Source: Anaerolineales bacterium (GTDB lineage Bacteria; Chloroflexota; Anaerolineae; Anaerolineales; UBA6663). Taken from it: 64,000 bases of DNA. Below the pieces are notes generated by a model. It ran no database searches. It saw nothing but the letters and a program-made list of their open reading frames with translations, and was not told the origin of the DNA. Location: the NCBI GenBank assembly GCA_020850595.1, contig JADZEK010000013.1, forward strand, positions 38,647-102,646, written 5' to 3'. The position numbers and the translations under genes are program-made. Below are positions 44,401-64,000 of this stretch, in pieces (positions within the stretch are counted from its first letter, which is position 1; every line of letters begins with the position of its first letter).

Positions 44401-44603
44401 AACCAGGCAATCTGGTCTTGGCCGCCCCACTGGCCGCCGAGCGGAAACTCCTGCCAACCCGAGTCATCCAAGGCGGGCGCAGCGCCGTCCGGCGCCTCTC
44501 CGGCATGGTATTTGAGCGGCCGGAGCGGCTGCACGGCACGGATGCCGGCCGCCTTCAGCTCCGGCAATTGTCTGGCAATCTTTTCAACCGTGTAGAACTT
44601 CAT
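41478..44603 (-). CDS. GH38 alpha-mannosidase, long form
   Basis: 1,041 residues. A lead domain (about 1-225) with beta-sandwich character precedes the GH38 core: GHAHIDLAWLWRW (zinc ligands His246 and Asp248) and WLPDVFGYSAALPQII (nucleophile Asp358). A helical middle and beta-rich C-terminal domains follow, ending in KTFKVWFETP. It should remove alpha-mannose residues inside the cell, since no signal peptide is present. The ATG at 44603 overlaps the SIS stop (ATGA). Confidence 0.93.
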   Translation of the reverse strand: MKFYTVEKIARQLPELKAAGIRAVQPLRPLKYHAGEAPDGAAPALDDSGWQEFPLGGQWGGQDQIAWFRTSVSVPEAWRGGKVQLRFVPGPADGGESTAEAMLYVDGAPLQGLDVWHETVWLPPELKERPTLSLAVRAWSGSWHPPARRTFQVAQLELVDEATEAFYHLANTLHQTLGVLSPNDLRRELLLNALQAAFLKLDFTERRSAAFYASVSEAHAYLAACVQAWQAQSEIKPRVTAIGHAHIDLAWLWRWTSTRDKAQRTFATVLHLMRQYPEYRFMHSSPHLYQAVREDAPELYARIRERIAAGDWEITGGMWVESDTNVPNGESLVRQFLFGKRFIREEFGRETTILWLPDVFGYSAALPQIIKGSGVQYFLTTKISWSQINRFPHDTFNWRGLDGTEVLTHFVTTPDSHERFYTYNGHMQPYDVAGLWDSYRQKDVNDELLHLFGWGDGGGGPTMEMLETARALANLPGMPAVAQGPSEGYFARLAERVAGAQLPTWDGELYLEFHRGTYTSQAFNKRANRQAEILYHTAEWLAALAALTTGAPYPHAGLRAGWEKLLFNQFHDILPGSSIPPVYVDSRADYAEIARVGAGVVEAARAALTAQLAAPVFSVAVFNPLGWARGGVISLPAEALAGKSLGGAVQAITAADGSAEALAEVTDVPALGYKVAPLQDGGATTNSLSVTAERLENDYYTVSVNAQGQITSLFDKRADREVLALGARANVLQTFEDKPMQFDAWDIDLYYQEKCREVTDLVEVVVEETGPVRGTLRLVWRFHTSTITQRLSLYAHTPRIDFRTEVDWHARQTLLKVAFPVNIRATRATYDIQFGSVERPTHWNTSWDWARFETIGHKWVDLSEGNYGVALLNDCKYGHDIKDNVLRLTLLRSAIDPDPLADEGRHSFTYSLLPHAGDWRVGGVVREAYALNVPLSAVALAPQPQGALPSTFSLAATDADHVIIETVKEAEAGQALVFRVYECHQMRRTGARLKFARTIRNAVECNLVEEDERPVSFSGSALTFPIRPFEIKTFKVWFETP

Positions 44604-45235
44604 GGGGGAAATAGGGCCTCTTCCAGCATGGCGCATAGCGCGTGGTAAATTGCCAGGTGGCGCTCTTGAATATCAGCGGTGCGGTCGGCGGGCACGCACA
44701 GGGGCAGTTCAACCAGCGGGGCCAGTTGGCCGCCCGCGCGCCCCGTGAAGCCGATCGTGCGCAGGCCGCGCACCCGGGCCACGCGCACGGCCTGCAGCAC
44801 ATCGGCGGCGTTGCCAGACGTGCTGATGGCCAGCAGTACGTCGCCGGGCCGGCCATAGCCATAGACCTGCTGCGCGAAGATCATGTCGCCCGCGATGTCG
44901 TTGACGATGGCCGTCAGCAGCCCCGTGTGGCTGACCAGCGAGATGGCGGGCAGGCCGCCCTGCAAGTGGTCGGCCAGATATGCCCCGGTGTCGCCGTAGG
45001 CCTCGGTCAGGCTGTGGCGGAGATCGGCGGCGATAGGGCGGCCTGACAGGTAGCCCTTCATTAGCTCGCCGACCACGTGCTCGGCGTCGGCGGCGCTCCC
45101 GCCGTTGCCGCAGATCAGCACCTGGCCGCCGGCCTGATAACAGGCGACGAGTGTGGCGTGGGCGCGCTCCAGGTTGGGCGCCAGCGCATCCAGGGCGGGA
45201 AACTTGACTAAGAGCGCGGCGAGGCTGGGGTGCAT
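44600..45235 (-). CDS. SIS-domain sugar isomerase, GmhA-like
   Basis: 211 residues, one SIS domain. CGNGGSAADAEHVVGELMKGY and ISTSGNAADVL are the phosphosugar-binding parts found in GmhA (sedoheptulose-7-phosphate isomerase). In this operon, between two GH38 mannosidases and a ROK kinase, it may isomerise mannose-6-phosphate or a related phosphosugar; this is an inference. The ATG at 45235 is preferred to a start within the GH38 gene. Its neighbours overlap by a few bases, giving tight coupling. Confidence 0.88.
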   Translation of the reverse strand: MHPSLAALLVKFPALDALAPNLERAHATLVACYQAGGQVLICGNGGSAADAEHVVGELMKGYLSGRPIAADLRHSLTEAYGDTGAYLADHLQGGLPAISLVSHTGLLTAIVNDIAGDMIFAQQVYGYGRPGDVLLAISTSGNAADVLQAVRVARVRGLRTIGFTGRAGGQLAPLVELPLCVPADRTADIQERHLAIYHALCAMLEEALFPP

Positions 45236-45251
45236 GGCTGCTCGGGCGCGG

Positions 45252-47690
45252 CTAGGCGCCAAACTCAATCAGGTTGTTCTCGACGGCGGGGTGGGCTAGG
45301 CTGGCGGGGACCCGGAAGGTCTTGATCTCGGCCGGCCCGAACTCGCTGCGGATGGCGCGCCGCCACGCGTTGAGGTGCAGCGCGGCCTCCACTGGCTCGC
45401 CTGCCAGGTTGACGGCCCGGACGATCAGGTCGCCCGTGCTGTCTTCGGCCGGCTTGAGGGCCGTGAGCGTGACGCCTTCGCCCTCGGCCTCCACCTCCAC
45501 AAACGAAGCGCGCAGTGGCAGCGGGCCTGCGTGGAACGTGGCGGGCACGACCAGCGGCGGTGCGTTCAGCTCGGCCGCGGTCGCCACGGTGCCCGCCGTC
45601 CGCCAACCGGCTGTGTGCGGCAGCAGGCTATAGCGAAACGACTGCCGGCCCTGGTCCATGAAATGCTGATCCGGGTCCGTCTCCGGCGGCAGGGGCGTGA
45701 GGTTGGCGAAGACCGGGCTGCGCAGGACGGTCAGGCCAAGCTCGGCGCCCTGGGCGGAATAAGCGTACTTGGCGTCGTTTGCCAGGCTGAGGCCCCACTC
45801 CGCGGCGCCGGCCGGCCCGCTGACGTCCACCCAGGTTTGGCCGGGCGCTTCCTGGCCGGTGGCGGGGCGCGTCACGGTGCCGTAGGGCGCCTCGGACGTG
45901 ACGGCCGGGTCGTCCACGTTGACGGGAAAGCGCAGCTTGAGCGCTGCAAACTGCTCATGCCAGTCCACGGTGACGGCGACCTCCACGCGCGCGAGCTCGC
46001 GGTAGAGCGTGAACGTCTGCGTCAGCCGCGAACGGCCGTAGGTGGTTTCGACGCGCACTGCGGCGCGCACCGGGCCGTTCTCGACCAGCCGGTAGCTGGG
46101 GGCGGCAAACACCCCGGCCGTTTGATCCAAATGCAACTCCGCCAGGCCCCAAGTGCTGGTGCGATCAGTGACCACCTCGGCGCGGGCCGCCGGGCCGCTG
46201 AAGGCATCCCGCGACCGGCGCTGGTCGTAGAGCCGGGCGATAGCGCCGGTGGCAGGTTCGAACTCCAGCCGCAGACTGTCGTTGGCCAGCACGGTGGCGC
46301 TTGCGGCCAACGGCGGCCGGGCAGTTGGCACGGGCTGTCCGGCCGGGCGCGGCGCGAGGCGATAAACCGCATAGCCTAGTGGCGGTAGGTCGGCCAGGAA
46401 GACGACGCGCCAGCGCAGCGCGGAAGCCGACTCGGCGGCGATAAGCTGGTGCGGCGCTACCACGCCCTCCGCATCCAAGATCACCTGATCGCCCACCGGC
46501 ACATCAAACTCCACCTCGACCGGTGCGCGGCTGGCCCAGGCCTGGTGGTTGAAAACCACGAACGGGCGTGTGGCTTCATCCGCCTCGAGATGCAGACTCC
46601 AGGACAGCGCCTCTGTCGCCTCGGCCAGTGCGCGCCCGGCGATGGCGAGCGCCTCGCCATAGGTGTCGCGGGCGTCCGCGTAGGCCGAGGAGATACTGGT
46701 GCCGGCCAGGATGTCATGAAACTGATTGAACAGCACCAACTGCCAGGCGCGAGCCAGCTCGGCCGCCGGATATGGGCGGTCGAGTACGCGGGCGGCGATG
46801 GTTGCCCACTTTTCGGCCGTCAACAGGCGCTGCTCGGCCTGCCGGTTCCACTGCTTGACGCCGGAATGCGCGGAATAGCAGCCGCCATAAGTGCGCTGTA
46901 TTTCGGCGGCGTGAGTGGGCAGCGGCATGTTGAGCGCGCGCATGGCGTCGAAGTACCGGTCGGGCGTGCTGAAGATCAACTCCGGCAGCGCGGGGTCGGC
47001 TTGCAGACGCTCCATCGTCTCGATATTGGCGCGGGTCGGGCCGCCGCCATGATTGCCGACGCCGAAGAAACACATCAGCGCCGCGACGGGCGGCCTCAGG
47101 TCGGCGGCCGAGCGCTGCACATGCGCTTCCAAGTTGCGCGAGGCGTTATACCCGTAGATCAGCCGCTGAGCGAGCACGCGTGAGCCGTCCGCGGCCTGCC
47201 ACCAGAACAGCCGCCCAGGCAGGTCGAGGTCGGTGAGCGCCGGCCGGGCGAAGACGTAGTTCTCCAGGCCGCTCTTGGCAAGCAGTTGCGGCAGCACGGC
47301 GTTGTGGCCGAAGGCGTCCACGCTGTAACCGGTGCGGGCCGTGACGCCGAACTTATCCAGAAAGTAGCGCTGGGCGTATAGCGCCTGGCGGACGAACGCT
47401 TCGCCCCCGGGCAGGTTGCAGTCCGGCTGGATCCACCAGCCGCCGACAATCTCCCAGCGGCCCTCACTGACACGCTGCTTGATCTCGGCGAACATGGCGG
47501 GGTCACTGCGCTCAACCCACTGGTAAAACTGGGCTGAACTGGAGACGAACACAAAATCCGGATATTCGTTCAGCCGATCCAGCGCGGAGCGAAACGTGGC
47601 GTGGACTTCGTGGTGGCCCTCCGGCCAGCGCCAAAGCCACACCGGGTCAATGTGGGCGTTGCCAATCAGGTAGAGCTGGGTGGTTTTCAC
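45252..47690 (-). CDS. GH38 alpha-mannosidase, short form
   Basis: 812 residues. YLIGNAHIDPVWLWRWPEGH opens the catalytic domain (His13, Asp15); GYSVDAFGHNAVLPQLL gives the nucleophile Asp125. Unlike copy 2 it has no lead domain. Three further domains end in IKTFRVP. A TTG at 47705 would add five residues; the GTG at 47690 is preferred by codon but no Shine-Dalgarno decides. Located after the ROK repressor gene and before the SIS gene. Cytosolic, no signal peptide. Confidence 0.92.
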   Translation of the reverse strand: MKTTQLYLIGNAHIDPVWLWRWPEGHHEVHATFRSALDRLNEYPDFVFVSSSAQFYQWVERSDPAMFAEIKQRVSEGRWEIVGGWWIQPDCNLPGGEAFVRQALYAQRYFLDKFGVTARTGYSVDAFGHNAVLPQLLAKSGLENYVFARPALTDLDLPGRLFWWQAADGSRVLAQRLIYGYNASRNLEAHVQRSAADLRPPVAALMCFFGVGNHGGGPTRANIETMERLQADPALPELIFSTPDRYFDAMRALNMPLPTHAAEIQRTYGGCYSAHSGVKQWNRQAEQRLLTAEKWATIAARVLDRPYPAAELARAWQLVLFNQFHDILAGTSISSAYADARDTYGEALAIAGRALAEATEALSWSLHLEADEATRPFVVFNHQAWASRAPVEVEFDVPVGDQVILDAEGVVAPHQLIAAESASALRWRVVFLADLPPLGYAVYRLAPRPAGQPVPTARPPLAASATVLANDSLRLEFEPATGAIARLYDQRRSRDAFSGPAARAEVVTDRTSTWGLAELHLDQTAGVFAAPSYRLVENGPVRAAVRVETTYGRSRLTQTFTLYRELARVEVAVTVDWHEQFAALKLRFPVNVDDPAVTSEAPYGTVTRPATGQEAPGQTWVDVSGPAGAAEWGLSLANDAKYAYSAQGAELGLTVLRSPVFANLTPLPPETDPDQHFMDQGRQSFRYSLLPHTAGWRTAGTVATAAELNAPPLVVPATFHAGPLPLRASFVEVEAEGEGVTLTALKPAEDSTGDLIVRAVNLAGEPVEAALHLNAWRRAIRSEFGPAEIKTFRVPASLAHPAVENNLIEFGA

Positions 47691-47713
47691 AGTGATGGTG
47701 GACAAGCCATGAG

Positions 47714-47742
47714 GCCGAGTGCGGGCCGAACCCCTACTCGGC
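47714..47742 (-). promoter_or_regulatory. Inverted repeat between repressor and GH38 gene
   Basis: GCCGAGT (47714-47720) and ACTCGGC (47736-47742) are perfect inverted repeats across 15 bases. It may be a weak hairpin or a regulator site; no evidence decides. Confidence 0.35.
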
Positions 47743-47778
47743 TCATTCTACTGCGGCTGAGGGCAAACGAAAAACGAC

Positions 47779-49050
47779 TTATACGGTAACCGCGGCCGGT
47801 GTCTGGGCTTCGCCGCCGCGCTGGCCCTGCGCGTAGTAGGGCAGTGGTTCTGTTAGCACGCGGTAATAGACGGTGGCGATGCCGCCCATGACACAGGCGT
47901 CGGTGCCGTGCGCGGCCACGACGATCTCAGCCGCCTCGGCCGCCCAGCGCATGGCGCGCCGGCGCACCTCCTCGCGCAGGGTCGGCAGCACAAACTCGTG
48001 CGCCAGGCTCAGCCCTCCGCCAAACACCACCCGCTCGGGGTTCAGCGCATTAATCAGCCCGGCCAGGCCGATGCCCAGGTAGACGCCGGTTTCGGCCAGG
48101 GCCGCGCGAGCCACGCCGTCACCGCGGCGGGCGGCATCCACGATCATCGGTATGGTGAGTTGCTGTAGGTCGTGGCCGGTGGCGGCCAGCAGGCGTGTGG
48201 GGCGGCCGCTGAGGATGGCCTCCTCGACGCGGCGCAGCAGCGCCCATTTGCTGACATAGGTTTCCCAGCAGCCTCGGCTGCCGCAGTTGCAGGGCGGGCC
48301 GTCGGGGTCAATCGTCATGTGCCCGACCTCACCGGCCAGCCCGCCCGTGCCGGAGAAGATGCGCCGATTGATGACCAGCCCGGCCCCGACGCCCACGTTG
48401 CAACTTAGGTGCAGCACCAGGTCGCTGCCGCGCGCTGCGCCGAAGTAGCTCTCGCCGAGCGCCGCCATGTTGGCTTCGTTGTCAATGTAGATGGGAAATG
48501 CGAACTGAGCTTGCAGCCAATCGCGCAGCGGCACATCGGTCCAGCCCAGGTTGGGGCTGAACAGCAGCGTGCCGTTGTCCACGTTCACCAGACCCGGCAG
48601 GCCCAGCCCCAGGCCCAAGATGGTCTGGTGGCGGGCGCGCGTTTCCGCCCAGGCCTGGTTGACGGCGGCGACCAGGCGGTGGAGCACTGCCGTCTGTGCG
48701 CGCGTAGTGAGCGCCTCGTCGCGGCGCCAGATGACCTGGGCGGCAAAGTTCGTCAGGATGACCGAGATGAAGTCAACGCCGATCTCTGCGCCGATCAGGT
48801 AGCCGACGTTGGGATTCAGTTCCAGCGGCACGGAAGGCCGCCCTTTATTGCCCAGGTCCGGCCCCAGTTCGCGTACATAGCGCGCCTCAATCAACTCCCG
48901 CACCAGGCTTGAGACGGCGGCTTTTGTCAGCCCGGTCATGAGGGCCAGGTCGGCGCGCGACAACGGCGCTTCCCGGCGCAGGCATTCGAGCAGCAGCGCC
49001 AGGTTCATTTCGCGCATGAGGGTGTGGTCAGCGCTGCGTATTCTGTGCAT
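47779..49050 (-). CDS. ROK family transcriptional repressor (NagC/XylR type)
   Basis: 423 residues: a winged helix-turn-helix at the N-terminus (LSRADLALMTGLTKAAVSSL) joined to a ROK sugar-binding domain with CNCGSRGCWETY. It should bind operator DNA and release it on binding a sugar. The start ATG follows GGGGGA. A 21-base palindrome, TTAGTT ... AACTAA, 29 bases upstream is the XylR-type operator pattern, so the gene is probably self-regulated and controls the GH38-SIS-GH38-kinase genes downstream. The inducer is probably a mannose derivative (inference). Confidence 0.92.
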   Translation of the reverse strand: MHRIRSADHTLMREMNLALLLECLRREAPLSRADLALMTGLTKAAVSSLVRELIEARYVRELGPDLGNKGRPSVPLELNPNVGYLIGAEIGVDFISVILTNFAAQVIWRRDEALTTRAQTAVLHRLVAAVNQAWAETRARHQTILGLGLGLPGLVNVDNGTLLFSPNLGWTDVPLRDWLQAQFAFPIYIDNEANMAALGESYFGAARGSDLVLHLSCNVGVGAGLVINRRIFSGTGGLAGEVGHMTIDPDGPPCNCGSRGCWETYVSKWALLRRVEEAILSGRPTRLLAATGHDLQQLTIPMIVDAARRGDGVARAALAETGVYLGIGLAGLINALNPERVVFGGGLSLAHEFVLPTLREEVRRRAMRWAAEAAEIVVAAHGTDACVMGGIATVYYRVLTEPLPYYAQGQRGGEAQTPAAVTV

Positions 49051-50239: not shown

Positions 50240-50423
50240 CCGGCTAACATTCGCCGCCAGGAACCAGCGTCTGCCCCTCTGCCTGATGCGTTCTGGCCTC
50301 CGGAGGTACGCCTCTCCGCAGGCCGTGTGCCCGTTGGCCTCAACGCGCAAGTGAAGTAGACTACGCGCCTTGGCGTCAGCGAGCGCGCCGGCCGGGTTCG
50401 GCCGGCCTCAGGAGGATGGCAGC

Positions 50424-51659
50424 ATGGAGCGTGTGGTGATCACCGGCATGGGCGTCGCCAGCCCCTTGGGGTGCACGGTGCAGACTTTTTGGGAGGGGCT
50501 GCTCGCCGGAAGGTCGGGCGTCGTGCCCGTGACCGAAGCCGAGTTTGGCGCGCTGCGCACCCGCATTGGCGCTCGTCTGGCGGGCTACGACGAGCGCCAA
50601 TACTTCGATGCCAAGGAAGCGCGCCGCATGAGCCGATCGAGCCAAATGGCCGTGGCGGCGACCACCCAGGCCGTGGCGCAGGCCGGCCTGACGCCGCAGC
50701 AGATTGACTACCAGGAAGTGGGCGTGATCATCGCCAGCTCTATCGGCGGCTTCGCGGCTAGCGATGGGTTCTTCAAGGCCTTCTATGTCAAAGGCACAAG
50801 CAACCCGTTGATCATTCCGATCTCGATGAACTCCGCGCCGTCGTCCAACGTGTCCATCCGGTTCGGCTTTCAGGGGCCGATGCTGACGGTAGACGCGGCG
50901 TGCGCCTCCTCCGCCCATGCCATTGGCTACTGCTACAACCTCATCCGCGCCGGCCAACTCGACATGGCGGTCACGGGCGGATCGGATTGCCCGTTCGCGC
51001 CGGGCGTCGTGGCCGCCTGGTGCGCGCTGCGGGCCTTGTCGGAACGTAATGACGAGCCGGAAACCGCCTGCCGCCCGTTCAGCGCCGACCGCGACGGCCT
51101 GGTGCTGGGCGAAGGCGCGGCGATCTTCGTCATGGAGTCCGAAACTTCCGCCCAGCGGCGCGGTCAGCCCATCCTGGCCGAAGTCCTTGGCTATGCCGCG
51201 GCCAGCGACAGCTATCACCTGACGCAGCCGGTGCCCGACGGCCCAGCCCGCGCCATGCGCCGGGCGTTGACGAACGCCGGCGTAACGCCCGAACAGATTG
51301 ACTGGATCAACGCGCACGGCACAGCGACCATCTGGAACGACAAGACCGAAACCGCGGCGATCAAAATGGTGGCGGGCGACCACGCCTACCAAGTGCCGGT
51401 GGTGAGCCTCAAGGCCGGCCTGGGCCATGCTATCGCGGCCAGCGCCGCCCTGCAAACGGCCGCGGCCATCCTCTCGATCCGTGACCAGACCGTGCCGCCG
51501 ACCAGCAACTACCGGGTGCGCGACCCCGAGTGCGACCTGGACTACGTGACCGAAGGCCCGCGGCGCCAGGCCATTTCGCGCGTGCTGGGCAACTCGTTTG
51601 CCTTTGGCGGCAGCAATGCCGCGCTGGTCATCGCGCGCTACGAACCCCGTGAGGGCTAG
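50424..51659 (+). CDS. Beta-ketoacyl-ACP synthase, KAS II (FabF)-like
   Basis: 411 residues. VVITGMGVASPLG opens the thiolase fold; the active-site Cys is in DAACASSAHAIG, one His in NAHGTATIWND and the Lys/His pair in LKAGLGHAIAA. It condenses malonyl-ACP with acyl-ACP. The His motif reads HGTATIWND rather than the common HGTSTPLND. It may be ordinary fatty-acid synthesis or supply the nearby megasynthase, which runs in the opposite direction. ATG at 50424 follows AGGAGG eight bases upstream. Confidence 0.88.
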   Translation: MERVVITGMGVASPLGCTVQTFWEGLLAGRSGVVPVTEAEFGALRTRIGARLAGYDERQYFDAKEARRMSRSSQMAVAATTQAVAQAGLTPQQIDYQEVGVIIASSIGGFAASDGFFKAFYVKGTSNPLIIPISMNSAPSSNVSIRFGFQGPMLTVDAACASSAHAIGYCYNLIRAGQLDMAVTGGSDCPFAPGVVAAWCALRALSERNDEPETACRPFSADRDGLVLGEGAAIFVMESETSAQRRGQPILAEVLGYAAASDSYHLTQPVPDGPARAMRRALTNAGVTPEQIDWINAHGTATIWNDKTETAAIKMVAGDHAYQVPVVSLKAGLGHAIAASAALQTAAAILSIRDQTVPPTSNYRVRDPECDLDYVTEGPRRQAISRVLGNSFAFGGSNAALVIARYEPREG

Positions 51660-53304
51660 GCGCAGCCTGCCGGCCGGCCCCACCTGGCAGGGCGCTCTGG
51701 CGGCGGGCCTGCTAGCGCTGGCCTTCTACGCCTACACGCTCCAGCCGTCACTGGCCTGGGGCGACGGCACGCGCCTCCAGCGCGAGGCCGTCACCGGCCA
51801 GTCGTTCATCCTGGCCGAGATGGTGCCGCTCGCCATCGCCCCCGACCCTCTGCCGTTCAACCGATTGGGCGTAGCCGCCTGGGACCATCCGTTGTACGTG
51901 ATGGTCACCCACACGCTCGTGCGCTTGCTGCCGGCCCTGGACCGGCTGTGGCTGGTCAACTTCTTCTCGGCGCTGTGTGGGGCCGGGGCGGTGGGGCTGG
52001 TGTACGCCCTGGTCGCCGAGGAGACCGGCCGCCCGGCCGCGGCAGCCATCGCCGCGGCGAGCCTGGCGGTGGCGCACACCTTTTGGTTTCACGCCGTGAC
52101 ACCCGAGGTGTACACGTTATGGGCGCTGCTGCTGCTGCTGGCGCTGGCGGCCTGGCAGCGTTTTGAGGCCACCGGCCGCGCGGGTTGGCTGGTGGCGGCC
52201 GGGCTGGCCTGGGGGCTAGGCGCGGCCAATCACTTGTTGGCCTTGCTGGCCGTATCGGCGTTGGGGCTGTATGCGGCCCTCACTTACCTGGCGCCGCCCG
52301 CGCCACGCGCTCAGCCGGATGGGCGGGCGCTGGCCCGTCAGTTGGGCTTCGTCAGCGTGGGATTTGGCCTCGGCTTCCTGCCCTACGTGATTCAATTCGT
52401 GCGGCTGCTGCGGCTGCTGCCGCTGAGTCAGGTATTGGGGCCGGTGGTGGGCACGACGTTCCTGGCGAATTTGTTGGCCCTGACGCCGGCCAAATTCGTC
52501 GCCAGCCTGGCAGTCGGGGCAGTGCTGCACCTGGCGCAGTTTGGTCCGCTGGGGCTGGCCCTGGGCTGGCTGGGCTTGGGGCTGCGCCGACGCCTGGCCC
52601 GCAAAGCGCTGGCCGGGTACTCCGTGTACGGCCTATTTGCCTTGCTCTATCACGTCTCAGACCAATTTGCGTTCTACCTGACGGCCTACGTGTTCCTGGC
52701 GCTGGCGTTGGGGCTAATGACGGATGCATGCCTGGCGCGGCTGACAGCCAGCGGGCGCGCCGCGGCGCTGGCGGTGTTGGCGGCCGGCATCGTGGCCCTG
52801 CCGTGGCTGTACGCGGCGGCTCCCAGTTGGGCGCGGGCGGCGGGCTATGGTGATGAGTTGTTGGCCATTCCGCAGATCGGCACGGGCGTCCGCGACGGGC
52901 TGACCTACTACGTGAACCCGAATAAACGCGGCGACTACGGTGCGTGGGCGTTCGGGCAGGCCACGCTGGCGGCGCTGCCGCCCAACGCCCTGGTGCTGGC
53001 CGAGTGGTACACCGATACGGATGAGTATTTCGTGCTGCGCTATTTCACCGCCGTGGAGGCCCTCCGGCCCGATCTGACGCTGGAGGGCTGGCCGACCGAA
53101 GACCCGTTCTTGTTCGATAACGCGCTAGCCGTGGCGCGCGTTCGGGCTGCGACGGCCGCGCGCCCCGTGTACTTGGCCTCCCTCGCTGAGCGGTACTATG
53201 GCGTGGCGGCCCTGCAAGCCGACTATTGCTTGACGCCTGAGCACAGCCTATATCGGGTCTATCCACGCGGCCTGGAGCCGGCTGGCGCTAGGTGTCTCCC
53301 CTGA
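51649..53304 (+). CDS. DUF2723-like multi-spanning membrane protein
   Basis: 551 residues, about ten or more membrane spans, with the soluble N-terminal and C-terminal ends. YTLQPSLAWGDGTRLQ at the start and the loop FNRLGVAAWDHPLYVM have the Asp-rich feel of GT-C enzymes and DUF2723 proteins. The C-terminal part (VLAEWYTDTDEYFVLRYF) is soluble. Probably transfers a lipid-linked sugar; this is an inference. The GTG at 51649 overlaps the KAS stop. Its end overlaps that of the convergent phosphopantetheinyl transferase gene by 17 bases. Confidence 0.72.
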   Translation: MRARRSLPAGPTWQGALAAGLLALAFYAYTLQPSLAWGDGTRLQREAVTGQSFILAEMVPLAIAPDPLPFNRLGVAAWDHPLYVMVTHTLVRLLPALDRLWLVNFFSALCGAGAVGLVYALVAEETGRPAAAAIAAASLAVAHTFWFHAVTPEVYTLWALLLLLALAAWQRFEATGRAGWLVAAGLAWGLGAANHLLALLAVSALGLYAALTYLAPPAPRAQPDGRALARQLGFVSVGFGLGFLPYVIQFVRLLRLLPLSQVLGPVVGTTFLANLLALTPAKFVASLAVGAVLHLAQFGPLGLALGWLGLGLRRRLARKALAGYSVYGLFALLYHVSDQFAFYLTAYVFLALALGLMTDACLARLTASGRAAALAVLAAGIVALPWLYAAAPSWARAAGYGDELLAIPQIGTGVRDGLTYYVNPNKRGDYGAWAFGQATLAALPPNALVLAEWYTDTDEYFVLRYFTAVEALRPDLTLEGWPTEDPFLFDNALAVARVRAATAARPVYLASLAERYYGVAALQADYCLTPEHSLYRVYPRGLEPAGARCLP

Positions 53305-54019
53305 TAGGCCACTCCCCACAATCAACTAGCGCGGCTTCGCGGCCGCGAACGGCTATGGCCGCGGCGTAGCCCGGAGGCATGGCGGGCTCGAGCAACTGCC
53401 AGGCCGCGGCCTCGGCCGGATCGTCCTGCACCCACAGCAGGCGCGGCTGGCCCGTCTCCAGCGTGACCTCGAACGCGTCGAGCGGCAAGGATAGTCCCAG
53501 GCCGCGTGCCTTGAGATAGGCTTCCTTGCGCGTCCAACACCGAAAGAAGGCGGCCGCCTGTTCTCCGGCGGGCAGGGCGGACAGCCGCTGCGCCTCGCCA
53601 GGGGCAAAGAAGCGCTCGGCGATGGCCGCGCGATCGGTGATTGGGCGGCAGGCCTCGACATCCACGCCGACGGGTACGGCGGCGGTGAGGGCGACCAGCG
53701 CCCATGCGCCCGAGTGCGCCAGGTTGAACTGCAGTACATCTGCCGGCGCGGCCAGGCCGGGCTTGCCAAAGTCGTTGGCCGCGAAGACCAACTCCGCCGG
53801 ACGTCGCCCGACGTAGGCGCTGATGAGTTGTCGCAGTTGTCCGTGCGCGGCGACAAAGCGCCGGGCGTCGGCGGCAAAGTAGAAGTGGGCGGCGCGCTCG
53901 CGCTCGTCGGGCGCCAGGGCGGTCTCAGTTGCGGATTGCGCTCTGGCCGGCAGGTCGAGCCGCAGCCGCCACAGGTGCAGCTCGGTGGCGGCCAGTGGGC
54001 GGAGTGTGGCGGTGCTCAC
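53288..54019 (-). CDS. Sfp-type 4'-phosphopantetheinyl transferase
   Basis: 243 residues. GVDVEACRPI and FFRCWTRKEAYLKARG are the two signature motifs. It activates carrier proteins by adding the phosphopantetheine arm from CoA. The GTG start lies three bases after the megasynthase stop, so it surely serves that enzyme's three carrier domains. Length and motifs are normal for Sfp types with broad specificity. Confidence 0.93.
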   Translation of the reverse strand: MSTATLRPLAATELHLWRLRLDLPARAQSATETALAPDERERAAHFYFAADARRFVAAHGQLRQLISAYVGRRPAELVFAANDFGKPGLAAPADVLQFNLAHSGAWALVALTAAVPVGVDVEACRPITDRAAIAERFFAPGEAQRLSALPAGEQAAAFFRCWTRKEAYLKARGLGLSLPLDAFEVTLETGQPRLLWVQDDPAEAAAWQLLEPAMPPGYAAAIAVRGREAALVDCGEWPIRGDT

Positions 54020-54022
54020 CGG

Positions 54023-57000
54023 CTATGCGGCGCGCACATCGGCCGGCAGCCCGGCGGCCCCTGGGCGGGGCAGGAAGCCCGTCTTGGTCAGGTGGTCGAG
54101 GTACATATCGAGCAGGGCCGGCTCCAGGGGAGGGCAGGCCACCCCAGACCCGGCCAGGCCCGCCAGCGTATTGGCGCAGTCGAAGCGCGGCATGAAAACC
54201 TGTTCCTGGGTCACATCCTCGATCAGGGGTAGGAACGGGCTGCCGATGTTGGCCGGGAACTGTGCGGCGAGCCGCAGCAGTTCGGCCTGCCAGGCGTCGA
54301 AGGCCACCACGCGCAGCGGATAGCCGCGGCCGCGCGCCCACTCGACGATCCGGGCAAAGGGGAGCGGGGCCGGATTGGACAGGTGAAAGATGCGGCCGAG
54401 GGAGGCGGGCTGCTGTGAGAGCGCGACAATCGCGCTACTCACGTAATCCACAGGCACCACATCGGCGCCCAGGTCAAGGTCGGGCACGCTGTTCAGCATG
54501 AGGCACAGGCGCAGCAGGCTGCCGATGAAATCTTCCGTGTTCCACGCTCCGGTGCGGCTGCTGCCCGAAATGGAGCCGGGTCTGTAGATGGCGATCGGCA
54601 AGCCGCGCTCGCCGGCGGCGCGCACCAGCGCCTCGCTGACCCACTTGCTCTGGGCATAGCCGCCATACGGCGCCCCAATGGCTTCCAGGTTGTCGGATTC
54701 GAGCAGGCGGCGCTGGCCGGGGTGCGTGGCGGTGTGGAAGACGGAGAGCGTCGAGACAAAGTGGACGGGCTTAGCGTGCCGGCGGAAGGCCAGCCGGAGC
54801 ACCGTCTCGGTGCCGCCCACATTGGCGGGCTTGTGCGCCGCGTAGCCGTGGACGAAGTTGACCATCGCGCCGTTGTGATAGATCACCTCGATCTGCTCGG
54901 CCAGGTCGGCCCAGGCGTCGTCAGGTTGGCCCAGTTGCGGCTGTGACAGGTCGCCCAGCACCGGCACGATCCGGGTCGCCAGCGTCTCGTCCCACAGGTG
55001 ATAGTTGCTGAGGTTCTTGCGCAGGCGTTCGCGCCCGGCCTCGCGGGAGGGCGCCCGCACAAGACAGTAAACCTGCGCGGCGGGCCAGGCCTGTAGCAGT
55101 TCGTGGAGTAGGAACGCCCCTACGAACCCGGTGGCGCCGGTGAGCAGGAGCTGAGTCGGTGCAGCCGCGTGCGCCGCCTCGCGCTGCGCCACCGTGAGGC
55201 TCGGATCGAGCACGGCCTCCGCTTTGAGGTCGGCGACGGTCAGCGCGCCGAACAAGCGGCTGCCGTGTCCGTTGTGACCGTTGCCCGCTGCCGCCGCGGA
55301 GCGGGCTTGCTCCACGGCCTGCGCCAGCCCGGCAACGGTAGGTGTCTCGAACACCGCGCGCAGCGGCAGGCGCACCGCCAGCACTTCGCGCACGCGCAGG
55401 ATTAGGCGCGTGGCGAGCAGCGAGTGGCCGCCCAGGTCGAAAAAACTGTCGTGGATGCCGATGCGGGCGCGGGCGGCCTCCGGCGCGAGGCCCAGCACCT
55501 CGCCCCACAGCCTCACCAGGTCGGTTTCGAGCGCTGTGCGCGGCGCAACGTAGTCCTCGCTGCGGGCCGCCTCGCCGGTGGGCGCGGGCAGAGCCTTGCG
55601 GTCGAGCTTGCCGTTGGGCGTCAGTGGTAGGGCGTCGAGCCTGAGATATTCGGCCGGGAGCATGTAGTCGGGCAGGCGCTGGCGCAGAAAATCACGCAGG
55701 TCGGCGGCGGCCGGCAGCGTTTGGCCGGGCTGGATGACGATATAGCCGACCAGCCGCCGGGCCTCGGGCGTGGCGCCGACTGCCGCGACGGCCGCCTGAG
55801 CGATCGCCGGGTGATGGCCGAGGGCGGTTTCAATCTCACCCAACTCGATGCGGAAGCCGCGCAGTTTGACCTGCTGATCGCCGCGGCCCAAAAACTCCAG
55901 GTTGCCATCCGGCAGGAAGCGCGCCAGGTCGCCGGTGGCATACAAGCGGGCAGCCGGGTCGGCCTGGAACGGGTCGGCCACAAAGCGCTCGGCGGTAAGC
56001 TCAGGCCGCCCGAGGTAGCCCAGCGCGACGCCATGGCCGCCCAGATAAAGCTCGCCAACGACACCGGGGGGAACCGGTTGCCGGCGCTCATCCAGCACAT
56101 AGGCTTGCGTATTCCAGATCGGGCGGCCGACCGGCACCGTGCCAGTCGGCGGATGCGCCCCGGCGCTGACGTGGTAGGCCGTGGACCAAATCGTCGTCTC
56201 GGTTGGCCCGTAGAGGTTCCACAACTCGCTCACGCGCGGCAGCAGCGCCTCGGCCAGCCCGCGCGGCATGGCCTCCCCGCCGCACAGCGCCTTGAGGGGC
56301 AGCGGCGCCTGCCAGCCCGCGGCCAGCATGAGCCGCCAGGTGGCGGGCGTGGCCTGCATGTGCGTGATCCCCTGGGTGCCCACCACGTCGAGCAAGCGCT
56401 CACCGTCGGAGGCCAACTCGCGTTCGGCGATGACAACTTGCGCCCCCACACTGAGCGGCAGGTACAACTCCAGCCCGGCGATATCGAACGAGAGCGTCGT
56501 AACTGCCAGCAGGCGGTCGCCCGCGGCCAGCCCTGGCGCCTCTTGCATGGATAAAAGGAAGTTGACGAGCGCGCGCTGCGGAATCTGCACACCCTTCGGA
56601 CGGCCGGTCGAGCCGCTGGTGTAGATCACGTAGGCGCGCTCTTCCCCGCCCGGCGCCGTGGGCAAGTTGCCGCTGGGCAGCGTCGCGATCGCGGGCCACT
56701 CGGCGTCGAGGACGACGACGCGCCCAGCGAACTCAGGCAGGCCGCCCACCAGAGCGCCCTCGGTGATCAGTACCGGCGCGCCGGAGTCGCCGAGCATAAA
56801 GGCTACGCGCTCGGCAGGATACGTCGGATCTAGCGGCACATAGGCCGCCCCGGCCTTCTGCACGCCGAGCAGCGCCACGAGCATGTTGGGCGAGCGCTCC
56901 AGGCAAACACCCACCAGCGCGCCAGGGCCGACACCCTGCGCTTGCAGGTGGCGGGCCAACTGGTTGGCCCGCATGTTGAGGTCGGCGTATGTCATAGCGC

Positions 57001-60000
57001 CGACCGACGAGCCGGCCGCGCTGACCGCCGGCGAAGTGGGCCTGCGGGCCGCCTGCGCTTCAAACAGGCGCGGCAAGCTGATGAAGTCCGGCAGCGGGCG
57101 CGCCGTGTCGTTCCAGGCGCGGGTCACCAACTCAGCCTCGGCGGCGGTGAGCAGCGGCAGGGCGGCGATGGGCCGCGTCGGGTCGGCCGCAAGTCCGGCG
57201 AGCAGCGCGCCCAGATGAGCGAGCAGCCGGTCGGCCGTCGCGGCCTCGAAGAGGTCCGTGTTGTAGTTGAGTGAAGCGGCTAGCCCGCCGTCCACCTCGG
57301 CCATCATCAGCGTCAGGTCGAACTGCGCCGGCTGCTGCCGGAGGGCCAGCGACTCGAGCGTCAGGTCGCCCAGCGGCAACTGCGTCCCGGGCAGCCCCAG
57401 TGCCAGCGCGCCCAGGCCCTCCACCTCTGCGCTCTGTGGGCGCTGCAGGATGAACATGGTCTGGAAGATGGGTGGGCGGCTGGCGTCGCGCAGCAGGTGC
57501 AGCTTATCGGCCAGCCAGGCGGGCGGGTAATCGGCGTGCTCAAACGCGCCCAGCACGGTCTGGCGTACCTGCGCGAGCAGATCGCGGAAGGACTGTTGTC
57601 CGTCTACCTCGGCGCGGATTGCTACCGGGTTGATGAAGTAGCCGGCCAGCCCGGCCAGTTCGGGGCGGGCGCGCCCGGTGGTGACCGAGCCAACAACGAG
57701 GTCACTCTGTCCGGTGTAGCGGAAGAGCAGCGCCTCAAAGGCGGCCAGCAATGTCATGTACAGCGTGGCGCCGTTGGCCCTCGCGACGGCGCGCAGTTGC
57801 TCGGCGAGCGCCGGGCTGAAGCGCACGGTGCGGGTGTCGCCCCGGTAGCTGGGCGACGCGGGGCGCGGGCGGTCCGTGGGCAGGTCCAGCACCGGCAGTT
57901 CGCCCTGCAGTTGCCGTTGCCAGTAAGCCCAGAGCTTGTCGCCTTCGGGTCCGGCCAGGCGGCTATTCTGCCAGCGCACGAAGTCGGCATATTGGACGGG
58001 GAGCGGCGGCAAGCTGGCCGGCCGCCCGGCGTGTGCGGCCTGGTAAAGGTGCATCAACTCCGTCGCCAAGACCGTCATGGACCAGAAGTCGGTGATGAGA
58101 TGATCAAGCGCCAGCAGGAGGACGTGCTCGTCCGCGGCGCGTTGATAGAGTTGGGCGCGAAACAATGGGCCGCGTTCGATCTCAAAGGGCGCGTGCGCGG
58201 CAGCGGTCAACCGCTCCTCGACCGCCGACTGCGGCCAACCCTGCGCGTCAATGATCTCTAGCGGCGCGGCCGGCCTCGCGGCCACCCGCTGCACCGGCGT
58301 CCCGTCACTCAGGTGGAAGGTGGTGCGCAGGGCGGCGTGGCGCGCCGCCAACTGGTCCAGGGCAGTGGCCAGGGCGGCCACGTCAAGCGGGCCGGTCAGG
58401 CGGGCCGCTCCGGCCACGTTGAATGCAACGCCCGGCGGCACGACCTGGTGCAGGAACCACATAGCCTGCTGATTGCTCGTCAGCGGCTGGTCGCCGCGCA
58501 GGTCGGCCAGCGCCTCGATGCGCACCGCCTGGGCGTCGCTGGCGGCCGCGCGCGCTTCGAGCGCACTGGTCAGCCCGGCGAGTGTTGGGCCTTGCAGCAA
58601 CTCCACCAACGGAACTTCCAGGCCGAGCGTTTGCTCGATGCGGTTCTTCAGCTCTACGGCCATGAGCGAATCAAGGCCGCATTGGTTCAGGGGTTGGTGC
58701 CGGTCCAGTTGGGCCTCGCCCAGGCCCAGCACGCGGCTGACCTGCCGCGCCAGGAAGGTTGGGATGGCCACCGGAGCGGCGGCGGGCGGCAGGGCCGGCG
58801 CCGGTGCGCTCAACTCTAACTTGGCCCCGAGCGCCGCCAACTGCTCCGGCGCGGCCTGGGCGAGAACGGCAAGGGCCGCTCGCAGCGTGTCCTCAGCGGG
58901 CTGTGAGTCACTACCCGCCATGTCCCACGCCGGCGCGTGGCTATCGGCAGATGGGGCGGGCAGCCAATGGCGCTGGCGTTCGAAGGGATAGGTGGGTAGG
59001 GCCACCTTGTGGCGCGCGTAGCCCCGGTCATAGGCCGTCCAATCCAGCGGGCCGCCTAGCGCATACAGCTGCGCCACGGCGCTGTTGAGCACGACCCAAT
59101 CGGGCTGTCCTGAACGGAGCGAGGGCAGCCAGGCTTGCCCGGCTTCCGGCAGTCCGCGCCGGGCCATACCCAGCAGCACCGGGTGCGGGCCGATCTCAAC
59201 CAGGGTGTTGATGCCTAGCTCCTCCAGGCGCCCGAGGCCCGCGGCAAAGCGCACGGGCGCGCTGACATGCGCGCGCCAATAGGCGGCGTCGGGGGCCGCC
59301 GTTTGCTGTGCGCCCGTGACGTTGGAGATGAGCACAGGGCCGGTCGGCGCTTGCATGTGCGTCTCAGCGGCCAGCCGTTCAAACTCGGCCAGCATGGGGG
59401 CCATCAGCGGTGAGTGGAAAGCGTGCGATACCGCCAGGGCCTGGCACTTGATCCCTTGCGCTGTGAGCTGCGCCGTAATCGCCGCCACTGCCTCGCCCGC
59501 GCCCGAGATGACCGTGTTGTCAGGTCCGTTGAGGGCCGCGAGGCTTACCCGTTCGGCGTAGGGCGCAATGGCCGCCGCGACAACGGCCTCGCCCGCGAAC
59601 ACGGCCGCCATCGCTCCGCCGGCCGGCAGCGCCTGCATGAGCCGGCCGCGCGCGGCAATGAGGGCCAGGCCCGTTTCGACCTCGAATACGCCCGCCGCAC
59701 AGGCCGCCGCGTATTCGCCGACGCTGTGACCGAGCACGGCCGCCGGCTCCACGCCCCAGCTCCGCCAGAGCGCGCCCAGGCCATACTCCAGCGCAAAGAG
59801 CGCCGGTTGAGTGAAAGCAGTCTGGTCCAGCCCCGGCGCATCGCCCCACATCACCGCCAGCAGCGGGCGCGGCAGGCCGCCGTTGACATCGAGCCAGGCG
59901 GCGCAGCGGTCGAGCGCGGCGCGATAGACCGGCTGAGTGTCGTACAGCGCCCGGCCCATGCCGGCGTACTGCGCGCCCTGACCGGTGAACAGGAAGGCAA

Positions 60001-63000
60001 TGCGCGGCTTCGGGTGGCCGGCGGCCTGCCCGAACACCACCCCGGCCGGCTCCTGGCCCTGGGCGGCGGCCGCCAACTGGGCCTGGGCCTCGGCCGCGCC
60101 GCTTGCCCTCAGCGCCAGCCGGTAGGCGTGCTGGCTGCGGCCGGCGTTGGCCGTGTGCGCCACGTCAGCCAGCCGGAGCGCCGGGTGTGCCGCCAGGTGG
60201 GCGGCATAGCGGCCCGCCAGGGTGCGCAGGGCGGCTGGGCTGCGCGCCGACAGCGCCAGCACGTGCAGTGGACGCTCGCGCTCGCCCGTTATTACGCGTG
60301 CCGCCGGCGCCTCCGCCAGCACCACATGCGCGTTGGTGCCGCCGAAGCCAAACGAACTCACACCCGCCAGCCGTGGGGTCCCGCGGGCCGGCCAGGGGCG
60401 CGCCGCGGTGAGGATCTGGATCGGCGTGCCGGCCAGCGGCAGCACCGGGTTCACCGCTTCCAGGTGCAGATGGCGGGGCAGCCACTCGTGCTGAAGCGCG
60501 AGCACGACCTTAATGACCCCCGCGATGCCGGCCGCCGACTCGAGGTGGCCGATGTTGGTCTTCACCGAAGCCAGCCCCACCACATGTTCCGGTGATCGCG
60601 GCGCGCCCAGCACCGCGCCCAAGGCCTGCACCTCAATGGGGTCGCCCAGCGGCGTGCCCGTGCCATGCGCCTCTACATAGTCCAGGTCGCCGGCCGGCAC
60701 TCCGGCCCGTTCCAAGGCCGCGCGGATGACGGCTTGCTGGGCGAGGCCGTTGGGCGCGGTCAGGCCGTTGCTCCGGCCATCTTGGTTGACGGCCGAGCCG
60801 CGCACGACCGCCAGAATTGGGTCGCCGTCGGCCTGGGCCTGTGCCAGGCGCTTGAGCACGACCACGCCGCAGCCCTCGCCGCGCACATAGCCGTCGGCCT
60901 TGGCGTCAAAGGTCTTGCAGCGCCCGTCAGCGGCCATCATGCGCGCCTGCGAAAACGTAATGGTCAATTCAGGAGCGAGGATGAGGTTCACGCCGCCCGC
61001 CAGCGCCACCTCGCTTTCGCCGCGCCGCAGACTCTCGCAGGCCAGATGCAGCGCCACGAGCGAGGAGGAGCAGGCCGTGTCAATGGCCAGGCTCGGCCCG
61101 CGCAGGTCGAGCGTGTAAGACAGGCGGTTGGCGGCGATGCTGTGCGCGTTGCCCGTGCCGGTGTAGGCGTCTATGCGGCCCGGATCACCGAACAGCAGGC
61201 GCGAATAGTCGTAGCTGCTGATGCCCATGAACACGCCCGTGTTGGTGCCTGCCAACTGGTCGGGCGGCAGGCCGGCGTTCTCCAGCGCCTCCCAGGCCAC
61301 CTCCAGCAGCAAGCGCTGCTGCGGGTCCATGCGCGCGGCCTCGCGCGGAGAGATGCCAAAGAAGTGCGGGTCGAAATGCCCCACGTCGTCCAGGAAGCCG
61401 CCCCAGCGCGTGCTCATTTTGCCGCGTGTGCCGGGTTCCGGCGCGTATAACTCATCCACCGGCCAACGGTCCGTCGGCACGACAGAGATCGCGTCCACGC
61501 CATCGCGCAGCAGTTGCCAGAAAGCTTCGGCGTCGGGCGCGCCGGGGAAACGGCAGCCCAGGCCGATGATGGCAATTGGTTCGTCTGGGGTGGCCCGGCT
61601 GCTTTCAGAGGCGGCCGGCCCTTCCGGTTCGGGTTCGATGCCGGCCAGGTGCAGGGCCAGTAGCCGGATGGTCGGGTAGTCCCAGGCCAGCGTTGGGGGC
61701 ACCGGTCGCTTGAGCCACACGGCCAATTCTCCGGCGACGCCGACGGCCTGAGCCGAGTCCAGCCCGTACTCCACAAACGGCCGCTCAACGGCAATCACGC
61801 CGGGGCGCATCTTCAGGCGCTTGGCAATGTGGTCAACCAGCCAGCTTTCAATGCCTGCGGCCTGGGCCAGGGCCTCGGGTGGGGCGCTGGGTGCAGTGGT
61901 TGCGAGCCTGCCGGCCGCCGCCGCGGCGGGCGCTGGCACGGCGCTAGCCACATCCTGATCGGCGCGCCATTCGGAAATGACCTCCAGGGTGCCGGCTAGG
62001 TACTGCTGCCTGCTGGCGTGCCGCTGGATTTTGCCGCTGGAGGTCTTGGCGATGCTGAGCGTCTTGATCAGCACCAGGGCGTGTAATTGCAGCTCATGAT
62101 GCAGCGCCAGCGCGCGCCGGACGGCGGCGACAACTTCGCCAAGCACCGGGCGCTGATAGTGACGATCCACCTCGGCCACTATCACCAGGCGCTCTTCTCC
62201 CTCCGCCTCGACCGAAAAAGCCGCCAGGCTGTCGGCGCGGATCGCGGCGTGGCAGCGCTCGACGGTGTGCTCGATATCTTGCGGGTAATGGTTGCGCCCC
62301 CGAATGATGATCAGGTCTTTGGAGCGCCCCGTGACGTAAAGTTGCCCATCATGTACGAAGCCCAGGTCGCCCGTGCGCAAGAACGGCCCGTCGCCATTGG
62401 CCAACCGCGCGCCGAAAGACTCCGCCGTTTCGGCCGGGCGGCGCCAATAGCCGGCGGTGATGTTGCCGCCCGCCAGCCAAATCTCGCCCACTTCATCCTC
62501 GGGGCAGGCGCACTTGGCCTCGGCGTTGACGATCAGCAGGCGTTCATCGAGGATGGCCCGGCCACAACTGACCAACACTTGCTGGTCGGCTGTCCCGGAG
62601 GCCAGGTCCACCGGGCTGACGACGACCTGATTGTGTTCCAGCGGCTTGCGCGCCAGGGTCAGGGTCGTAATGCGGCCCGCGCCGTGCCCGCCCGCGGCCA
62701 GCAAAGTCGCCTCGGCCAGCCCGTAGCACGGGTAGAACGCTTCCGCTTTGAAGCCGCTGGGCGCAAAAGCCGCCGCGAACCGGTCCAGAGCCTCCGGCCG
62801 AATAGGCTCAGCCCCGCAGAAAGCCACCCGCCATTGGCTCAGGTCGAGCCGGGCGCGTTCCTCTGGCGTCACCTTGTCCACGCACAGCGCGTAGGCGAAG
62901 TTGGGCGCTCCGCTGATCGTGCCATGCCGGCTGCCATAATCCGTAATGGCCTGGAGCCAGCGGCCCGGCTGCTGCAAGAACGATGCGGGCGACATGAGCG

Positions 63001-63715
63001 TGGAGGGGCCGCCCAGGTACAGCGGCTCCAGGATGCCCCCGATGAGGCCCATGTCGTGATAACTCGGCAGCCAGAACACCCCGCACTGGCCCGCGTTCAT
63101 CTGGAAGCCGGTGTGAATCATGGTCAAGTTGGCCATCAAGTTGCCGTGCGAGACCATGACGCCCTTGGGGGTCGAGGTGGAGCCGGAGGTGTACTGTAGG
63201 AAGGCGAGCGTCTCAGGCGTGATCGCCGGCGGGCGCCAGGCCGCCTCGCTGCCTGCCGTCAGGCGGGCCGTGTCGAGCCAGCGCAGGACGGCCAGGTCGG
63301 GCAGATGTGAGAAGCGGCGCTCGAGGCTGCTGAGAATACTGGTGGTGCTGAGCGCCACGGTAGCCTGGGCGTCGGCCACGATGCCCTGTAGGCGCGGCAT
63401 CGGCCGGTTGAGGCGCGGCGGATAGGCGGGCACCGCCACTACGCCCGCATACAGGCAGCCAAAATAAGCGGCGATATACTCCAGGCCGGGCGGATAAAGT
63501 AGCAGCGCCCGCGCGCCGATGGGCGCCTGGGCTTGCAGCCAGGCCGCAATGGCGCGGGCGCGCCGGTCGAGTTCGCCATACGTCAATGAGTCCGCCGCGG
63601 CGCTTGGGTCATCCGCCAGAAAGCGGTAGGCCGTCCGGTCAGGTTGTTCTCCGGCGCGTAAGCGGAGCAAATCCACCAGGGTAGGGGGCGGAAACGGCGC
63701 GAACTCACCAGGCAT
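54023..63715 (-). CDS. Hybrid FAAL-PKS-NRPS megasynthase with terminal reductase
   Basis: 3,230 residues from the ATG at 63715 (a TTG at 63730 is possible). Domains by motif: fatty acyl-AMP ligase (1-580, [17 protein letters not shown]); carrier 1 (620-695, Ser654 in YGLDSAQ); ketosynthase (711-1135, Cys882 in DTACSSS, His1017, His1057); acyltransferase (1237-1545, Ser1331 in GHSVGE; HAFH, as in malonyl-specific enzymes); carrier 2 (Ser1683); condensation (1745-2190, DHLITD); adenylation (2215-2710); carrier 3 (Ser2765 in GGHSLL); thioester reductase (2850-3230, [16 protein letters not shown]). No ketoreductase is present. The adenylation pocket, read by hand, is D-I-L-Q-L-G-L-I-W-K, which I recall as a glycine code. 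The predicted chain is fatty acyl, malonate (beta-keto), glycine, then aldehyde release. Confidence 0.9.
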
Positions 63716-64000
63716 GCAGGACACTCCCAACTACCAGCCACGGGGCGGCCCCTGCGGCGCGGCGCAGGGCCATTGCATCTAAACTGCGCTTGGGACCGAT
63801 TAGCCCCATTTTGCCTGTCATTCCGAAGAGCGCATGGCGGCAGGCCGCCAGCCCCCCAGTGGCGAAACACTCAGCGGACCATGTCATTCCGAAGCCCCCC
63901 TCCGGTTGCCGGCCATCCTTCGGCATTGTGGGGGGTGAGGAATCTCAACCCAGGATCAGGCTGACCCTTTGATCGTACCAGGTTTAGTTTCTGAGCAACC
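63716..64000. other. Upstream of the megasynthase gene, with repeat copy B
   Basis: No gene seen. CCCTGCG and CGCAGGG form a hairpin at about 63755-63775. The right-hand 185 bases are repeat copy B. No clear promoter could be chosen. Confidence 0.55.
63816..64000 (+). repeat. Dispersed repeat, copy B (reaches window edge)
   Basis: Closely similar to 26358-26550 in the same orientation. Differences are scattered substitutions and short indels. It sits just upstream of the megasynthase gene and may extend past the window. Confidence 0.85.

Follow-up and report, generated by a model that had tools for sequence, protein, structure and literature searches.

A nine-domain FAAL-polyketide-peptide megasynthase of Anaerolineales with a predicted reductive release of a beta-ketoacyl-glycyl lipid

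The Anaerolineales are abundant and mostly uncultured bacteria, and the genome of one of them encodes, in the 64,000-nucleotide stretch of DNA analysed here (the window), a single megasynthase with the domain order FAAL-ACP-KS-AT-ACP-C-A-PCP-R. This architecture is confirmed as real, intact and far beyond chance, in the form in which it was first described from the letters of the DNA. The protein can be predicted with high confidence to assemble a beta-ketoacyl-glycyl backbone and to release it by reduction, and a plausible though far from assured end product is the alcohol, N-(3-oxoacyl)-2-aminoethanol. The parts are each of a known kind; their fixed combination, the lineage in which it is found and the set of genes around it look new, and it is likely that the megasynthase family makes an undescribed family of exported lipids. 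The genes and domains are collected in Table 1.

Table 1. Genes and domains of the locus, with positions counted in the window and motif positions counted in amino acids (aa) of the megasynthase
Feature	Position	Strand	Remarks
FabF-like ketoacyl-ACP synthase	50370..51659	+	recurrent in relatives
TMEM260/PMT_2-like membrane glycosyltransferase	51598..53304	+	convergent; recurrent in relatives
Sfp-type 4'-phosphopantetheinyl transferase (PPTase)	53288..54019	-	243 aa; GVDVE, WTRKEAYLK
FAAL-ACP-KS-AT-ACP-C-A-PCP-R megasynthase	54023..63715	-	3230 aa from ATG; ORF opens at TTG 63730
Thioester reductase (R; TIGR01746)	54041..55183	-	TGATGFVG (TGATGF at aa 2864), STLS, YAQSK (aa 3025); best solved match MxaA 4u7w
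PCP	55286..55558	-	GGHS (aa 2767)
Adenylation domain (A)	55571..57103	-	pocket code DILQLGLIWK, glycine type
Condensation domain (C)	57101..58513	-	DHLITDF (aa 1876) where HHxxxDG is usual
ACP2	58511..58813	-	GLDS
Acyltransferase (AT)	59021..60043	-	GHSVG (aa 1334) and HAFH (aa 1436)
Ketosynthase (KS)	60281..61603	-	DTACSS (aa 884), HGTGT (aa 1022), NIGH (aa 1059)
ACP1	61616..61873	-	phosphopantetheine serine in GLDS
FAAL domain	61931..63715	-	structure matches

The open reading frame list gives the megasynthase as a minus-strand frame of 3235 aa (54023-63730) when opened at the TTG, and the start at the ATG at 63715 gives a protein of the same length as the database copy P0123. Pfam finds on it AMP-binding twice, PP-binding three times, and KS, AT, Condensation and NAD_binding_4, and these matches together with the motif positions bear out the domain order of the sequence-only reading, as well as its missing ketoreductase, for neither KR nor DH is present among the Pfam matches. 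The N-terminus, with a FAAL followed by an ACP, is that of a FAAL-initiated hybrid PKS-NRPS; the FAAL matches the solved fatty-acid--AMP ligases FadD32, FadD23 and FadD28, and its top structure match is 7r7f (603 bits), a record titled only 'Polyketide synthase'. A KS-AT-ACP extension module follows that has its catalytic motifs in place, and the HAFH that had been reported for its acyltransferase is indeed there, a motif of the malonyl type. The ten-residue pocket of the adenylation domain, read by alignment with its positions placed by GrsA numbering and not from a structure, gives a glycine-type code, in keeping with the earlier suggestion of a glycine-like pocket, and indicates no other amino acid. 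In the literature, DILQLGMIWK appears among Gly-activating domains (PMC12283262) and the pocket DILQLGVI of nocamycin NcmB is predicted to be glycine-activating, in agreement with the structure (PMC5466765). Finally, the C-terminal reductase has the TGxxGxxG Rossmann motif and the complete Ser/Thr-Tyr-Lys set of the reductive-release NRPSs, and the loss of catalytic residues that would have spoken against the sequence-only reading is not seen. A caveat is that the genome bin is listed with a contamination of 9.58%; a genome of the same family (G004), however, carries an orthologue of the protein.

How might such a protein operate? On the established chemistry of FAAL, KS, AT, C, A and R domains we infer the substrates and their order, two hydride transfers, roles for the neighbouring genes and a place for the product at the cell surface. 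The FAAL would make a fatty acyl-AMP and pass the acyl group to ACP1, after which the ketosynthase would condense it with malonyl on ACP2, the beta-ketone being retained as there would be no ketoreduction. The condensation domain would then couple the beta-ketoacyl chain to glycyl-PCP, and the reductase would free the beta-ketoacyl-glycyl chain by NADPH-dependent reduction, with a second hydride transfer plausibly giving N-(3-oxoacyl)-2-aminoethanol. Addition of a sugar and export to the cell surface may follow.

The protein is one of a family. Homologues were sought with the reductase region, for which 7977 candidates were scored and the best 120 taken; the ACP2-C region used as a query was swamped by large NRPSs and was left out of the homologue set. 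By domain BLAST the same nine-domain order is present in 104 of these best 120, the window's own protein included, so that the search for the same architecture proposed in the sequence-only reading yields 103 further homologues; the remaining 16 are partial or variant. All 104 same-order proteins carry the adenylation code DILQ[LI]G[LMV][IV]WK and the ketosynthase motifs DTACSS and HGTGT, exact HAFH is found in 97 of them, and the reductase motifs STL and Y..[ST]K are again in all 104, although the homologues were picked via the reductase, such that its conservation is partly selected for and more weight attaches to the conservation seen in the other domains. Most of the named source organisms of the homologues listed belong to Anaerolineales, Anaerolineae or Chloroflexi, but not all do, P0221 (Candidatus Sulfomarinibacteraceae) being at least one that does not. 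A scan of named genomes with C-domain alignment gave a second set of 73 loci, 19 of which have the full order in one ORF, every one titled Anaerolineales, Anaerolineae or Chloroflexi; FAAL-ACP-C proteins in the same set come from cyanobacteria, Acidobacteria and others. When 400 genomes were sampled from the order and 400 from the phylum, both samples containing the window's genome, the reductase had a match in 30 of the former (E up to 1e-95; in 18 of these in a frame of at least 3,200 aa) and in 11 of the latter (E up to 1e-80; 5 of the 11 in frames of at least 3,200 aa).

A few relatives depart from this pattern. Six proteins of about 3,000 aa (P0169, P0178, P0184, P0208, P0225 and P0227), one named Desulfobacteraceae and one Proteobacteria, are without a Pfam acyltransferase, have by domain BLAST an additional reductase-like domain after the ketosynthase and a weak or missing C domain, and look like a different FAAL-KS-R-A-PCP-R machine. 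In L038 and L081 the megasynthase is split across several ORFs, through sequencing errors or decay, and the Anaerolineae MAG UWPOB_ANAER1 has two separate megasynthase copies (L034, L037).

In the condensation domain a customary residue is replaced. At the first position of HHxxxDG the 104 same-order proteins have D in 83, N in 11, S in 8, T in 1 and H in 1, while all 104 (from the best 120 of 7977) retain the second His as well as the Asp. In the 73-locus set, the KS-AT-ACP-C proteins are non-His at this position in 27 of 27 readable sequences (28 in all), as against a His, within HHxxxD[FL], in 25 of 25 readable FAAL-ACP-C proteins (29 in all). HH is nevertheless present in L081, the split member, which was counted as 'other', and in the partial homologues P0144 and P0218. 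An unrooted C-domain tree was built of 83 rows. From the 104 it took every non-D member and one in four of those with D, and to these were added the window, six more homologues, the 29 FAAL-ACP-C loci and five member loci. On it the C domains predicted to accept a beta-ketoacyl donor form one side of a single branch with a support of 100, and the motif undergoes five changes, with four HH rows (P0191, P0144, P0218 and L081) on the beta-ketoacyl side. With a single supported clade that itself contains four HH rows, the correlation is not a replicated one, and a statistical link of the motif to the beta-ketoacyl donor was rejected, the tree offering only one independent pair. The motif would instead mark one event, in either direction, with later changes. 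P0236, with a KR before ACP2 and the motif HHIVIDF, was considered as independent support and was likewise rejected, its C domain falling outside the beta-ketoacyl clade.

The nearest known counterparts of this part of the protein are the FAAL-ACP-C-A lipoinitiation modules of lipopeptide synthetases from cyanobacteria, Acidobacteria and others. Identity to the window's protein is 50-55% for the FAAL (23 of 29 loci) and, across the fully supported branch, 44-51% for the C domain (24 of 29). These modules have no KS-AT-ACP insert and many continue with more C-A-PCP modules, and the C domain of the window differs from theirs in its DHLITDF motif, in having as donor ACP2 behind KS-AT, and in its separate clade. 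The simplest reading of these comparisons is that the megasynthase module may have arisen when a KS-AT-ACP unit entered an ancestral lipoinitiation module. The altered motif offers a hypothesis on beta-ketoacyl donors that is open to test.

What, then, leaves the reductase: an alcohol, or an aldehyde that goes on to something else? Among solved structures the domain matches MxaA 4u7w best (330 bits), followed by 8v1x, 'Type I polyketide synthase' (265), and far more weakly by NRP 4dqv (111), carboxylic acid reductase (107), PsoA (83) and AusA (72). TIGR01746 in NCBIfam scores 350 bits against a cut-off of 213, and of the product-specific models MxcG scores 279 as against 244 for the aldehyde-forming Lys2-type model, scores that are not strictly comparable between models. 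The best-scoring terminal reductase modules are thus those of MxaA (myxalamid) and MxcG (myxochelin), although these belong to multi-protein lines whose products are unrelated and in which the reductase does not share a protein with a FAAL-KS-AT start. We know of no sequence rule that distinguishes two- from four-electron reductases. In one account (PMC2835699) the myxalamid and myxochelin reductases are termed four-electron enzymes that reduce to the alcohol, two-electron release within the superfamily is described for nostocyclopeptide, Lys2 and saframycin, and the basis of aldehyde release is called unexplored. The alcohols of MxaA and MxcG, together with the hydroxyl-tailoring neighbours of some relatives, make the 2-aminoethanol amide at least as likely as a ring. 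These hydroxyl-acting enzymes are a GT28 protein, an FkbM methyltransferase and, in one genome (G014), a sulfotransferase with a methyltransferase; for the methyl or glycosyl transfers, an enol or a hydroxypyrrole could be the alternative acceptor.

The ring in question is that proposed in the sequence-only reading. Reduction would go no further than the aldehyde, and the beta-ketoacyl-glycinal would undergo an intramolecular Knoevenagel closure, giving a 3-acyl-3-pyrrolin-2-one or, in its other tautomeric form, a 3-acyl-2-hydroxypyrrole. Fungal PKS-NRPSs of the cytochalasan/fusarin type, and PsoA, have likewise one polyketide part fused to one C-A-PCP-R module and take an aldehyde route to pyrrolinones. 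Their polyketide part is, however, of the highly reducing kind with KR and DH, carrying reducing and methylating domains and no FAAL, in contrast to the window's protein, where Pfam finds no KR or DH, and the PsoA reductase is distant from the window's at 83 bits. All the groups that the closure needs are predicted to be present, namely an active methylene (no KR having been found), a glycine aldehyde and an intact reductase, and the glycine code and reductase residues kept throughout the 104 same-order proteins are what one fixed ring would lead one to expect. Moreover, the beta-ketone and the glycine are not obviously needed for an aminoethanol amide but would be for the ring, and one bacterial case of reductive cyclisation, to a butenolide, is reported (PMC12304814). 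Against this, the nearest reductases of known product, MxaA and MxcG, yield alcohols and no cyclase is recognised among the neighbours scanned. An alpha/beta-hydrolase does adjoin the megasynthase in 20 of 26 relatives, but the member of its cluster that was scanned is a protein of the Thioesterase family; next to the window's gene there is no such hydrolase, and the best matches to it in the genome lie on other contigs. On balance we lean towards the alcohol, and the pyrrolinone seems a doubtful but serious candidate.

A product that stays as the free aldehyde, its hydrate or a hemiaminal, acting for instance as a covalent protease inhibitor, is improbable: two-electron release is described in this superfamily (PMC2835699), but one would expect an aldehyde of this beta-ketoamide type to be reduced or to close to a ring, a single glycine gives little room for protease recognition, and no feature of the neighbourhood speaks for it. 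Most improbable of all is that the terminal domain serves as a redox-inactive cyclase and releases a tetramic acid by a Dieckmann-type reaction. A beta-ketoacyl-glycyl thioester is a classical precursor of tetramates, and nocamycin NcmB/NcmC has the same type of glycine code behind a polyketide chain (PMC5466765). For nocamycin, however, a Dieckmann cyclase is the proposed releasing enzyme where the window's protein has a reductase, the TGATGFVG-type, Ser/Thr, Tyr and Lys motifs that a redox-dead R* would lack are kept here and in the 103 same-order homologues, and no separate cyclase is recognised among the neighbours scanned.

The setting of the gene is in keeping with an exported product. 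For the neighbourhood comparison, 29 of the 73 loci were chosen as members by architecture (fragments such as L047, L079 and L102 were left out), the neighbours were clustered by BLAST with single linkage, with one to a few members of each cluster named by Pfam/NCBIfam, and counts were restricted to loci with enough flanking contig. A divergent FHA-ABC exporter cluster is found in 18 of the 21 member loci with at least 1 kb upstream. Downstream, a type II thioesterase (20 of 26) and a PPTase (18 of 26) recur in member loci with at least 1.5 kb of contig, and a TMEM260-like protein (12 of 22), FabF (11 of 22) and a GT28 cluster (5 of 22, one cluster member domain-scanned) in those with at least 4.5 kb; an FkbM methyltransferase cluster, again with one member domain-scanned, occurs in 5 of 26 loci with 1.5 kb downstream. 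The idea that the gene right after the megasynthase in the relatives is the PPTase was rejected, since in L033 Pfam identifies it as a type II thioesterase, with the PPTase next. At the window's own locus no thioesterase is found beside the megasynthase, the genome's best matches being on contigs C180 and C138, and no GT28, sulfotransferase or FkbM protein is seen, only the TMEM260-like protein. Downstream of the gene in G014 (L026:17295-19861), a methyltransferase, a 215-aa protein without any Pfam match and a sulfotransferase take the place of the usual genes, and G039 (L074) has ORFs of sizes similar to these. In six genomes of the taxonomic family, the megasynthase reductase, the TMEM260-like protein and FHA-ABC are found in the same two; a close FabF (70%) is present only in the other carrier, the remaining FabF hits being at most 44%. 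The absences in the family are weak evidence because two of the four non-carriers are just 63-69% complete.

Contig C13, and the window with it, stops 285 nt upstream of the megasynthase gene. The final 126 bases of C13 are identical to the first 126 of contig C71 (L110:1-126), which looks like an assembly-graph overlap, and on C71 an FHA-ABC protein starts at base 392 on the plus strand that is 76% identical to the one beside the G004 orthologue. On account of this overlap and this identity it is very probable that the locus has the divergent FHA-ABC exporter known from the relatives, on C71, at a distance of about 550 bases from the megasynthase if the two contigs join at the overlap. The sequence TGTCATTCCGAAG occurs twice just upstream of the megasynthase (window 63732-64000). 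Further along C71 are two genes with Ser/Thr kinase domains, and the same genome has two more FHA-ABC proteins, on C82 and C138. The Rv1747-type FHA-ABC transporters likewise have FHA domains fused to an ABC-2 exporter, with two FHA domains reported in Rv1747, compared to three FHA stretches in the C71 protein.

On the other side of the megasynthase the PPTase ORF begins 3 bases after the megasynthase ORF. PF01648 has two matches in the whole genome. The second lies in a frame of just 132 aa, the size of an AcpS, which leaves this protein as the only Sfp-sized PPTase found in the genome. The earlier description of the megasynthase as having its own PPTase holds as far as adjacency is concerned, though not as to exclusivity: there are further C domains on contigs C180 and C141 and an R domain, within a 1578-aa frame, on C138, and the PPTase may as a result serve other assembly lines.

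Taken together, these features allow a broader reading, which is possible but which we advance only tentatively, that Anaerolineales make a novel surface lipid, either a glycosylated 3-oxoacyl-aminoethanol or a 3-acylpyrrolinone. One protein would build the lipid from a fatty acid, malonate and glycine, a phosphorylation-gated FHA-ABC exporter would carry it out of the cell, and its C domain would derive from a lipopeptide-starting one that lost its first active-site histidine upon insertion of the polyketide module. No characterised member of the cluster was recognised in the literature, most subscription papers being beyond reach. The search gave nothing on the pocket code DILQLGLIWK or on a thioreductase with amino alcohols, and of the papers on Anaerolineae/Chloroflexota NRPS/PKS, on reductive-Knoevenagel-pyrrolinone and on FAAL-reductase-glycine none was recognised as describing this cluster; two Chloroflexota papers, in their accessible parts, count PKS/NRPS clusters and name no products (PMC11748557, PMC10608941). 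With a single protein, one architecture and one predicted set of substrates, the system is a tractable target, and the product could be had from one laboratory host given the gene and a PPTase. That product would reveal something of the chemistry of the lineage, and whether bacteria make lipid amides or pyrrolinones reductively with one protein. Elsewhere in the window, at 40528-49050, is a sugar block of two GH38 alpha-mannosidases, a SIS domain protein and two ROK proteins, one of which has a helix-turn-helix.
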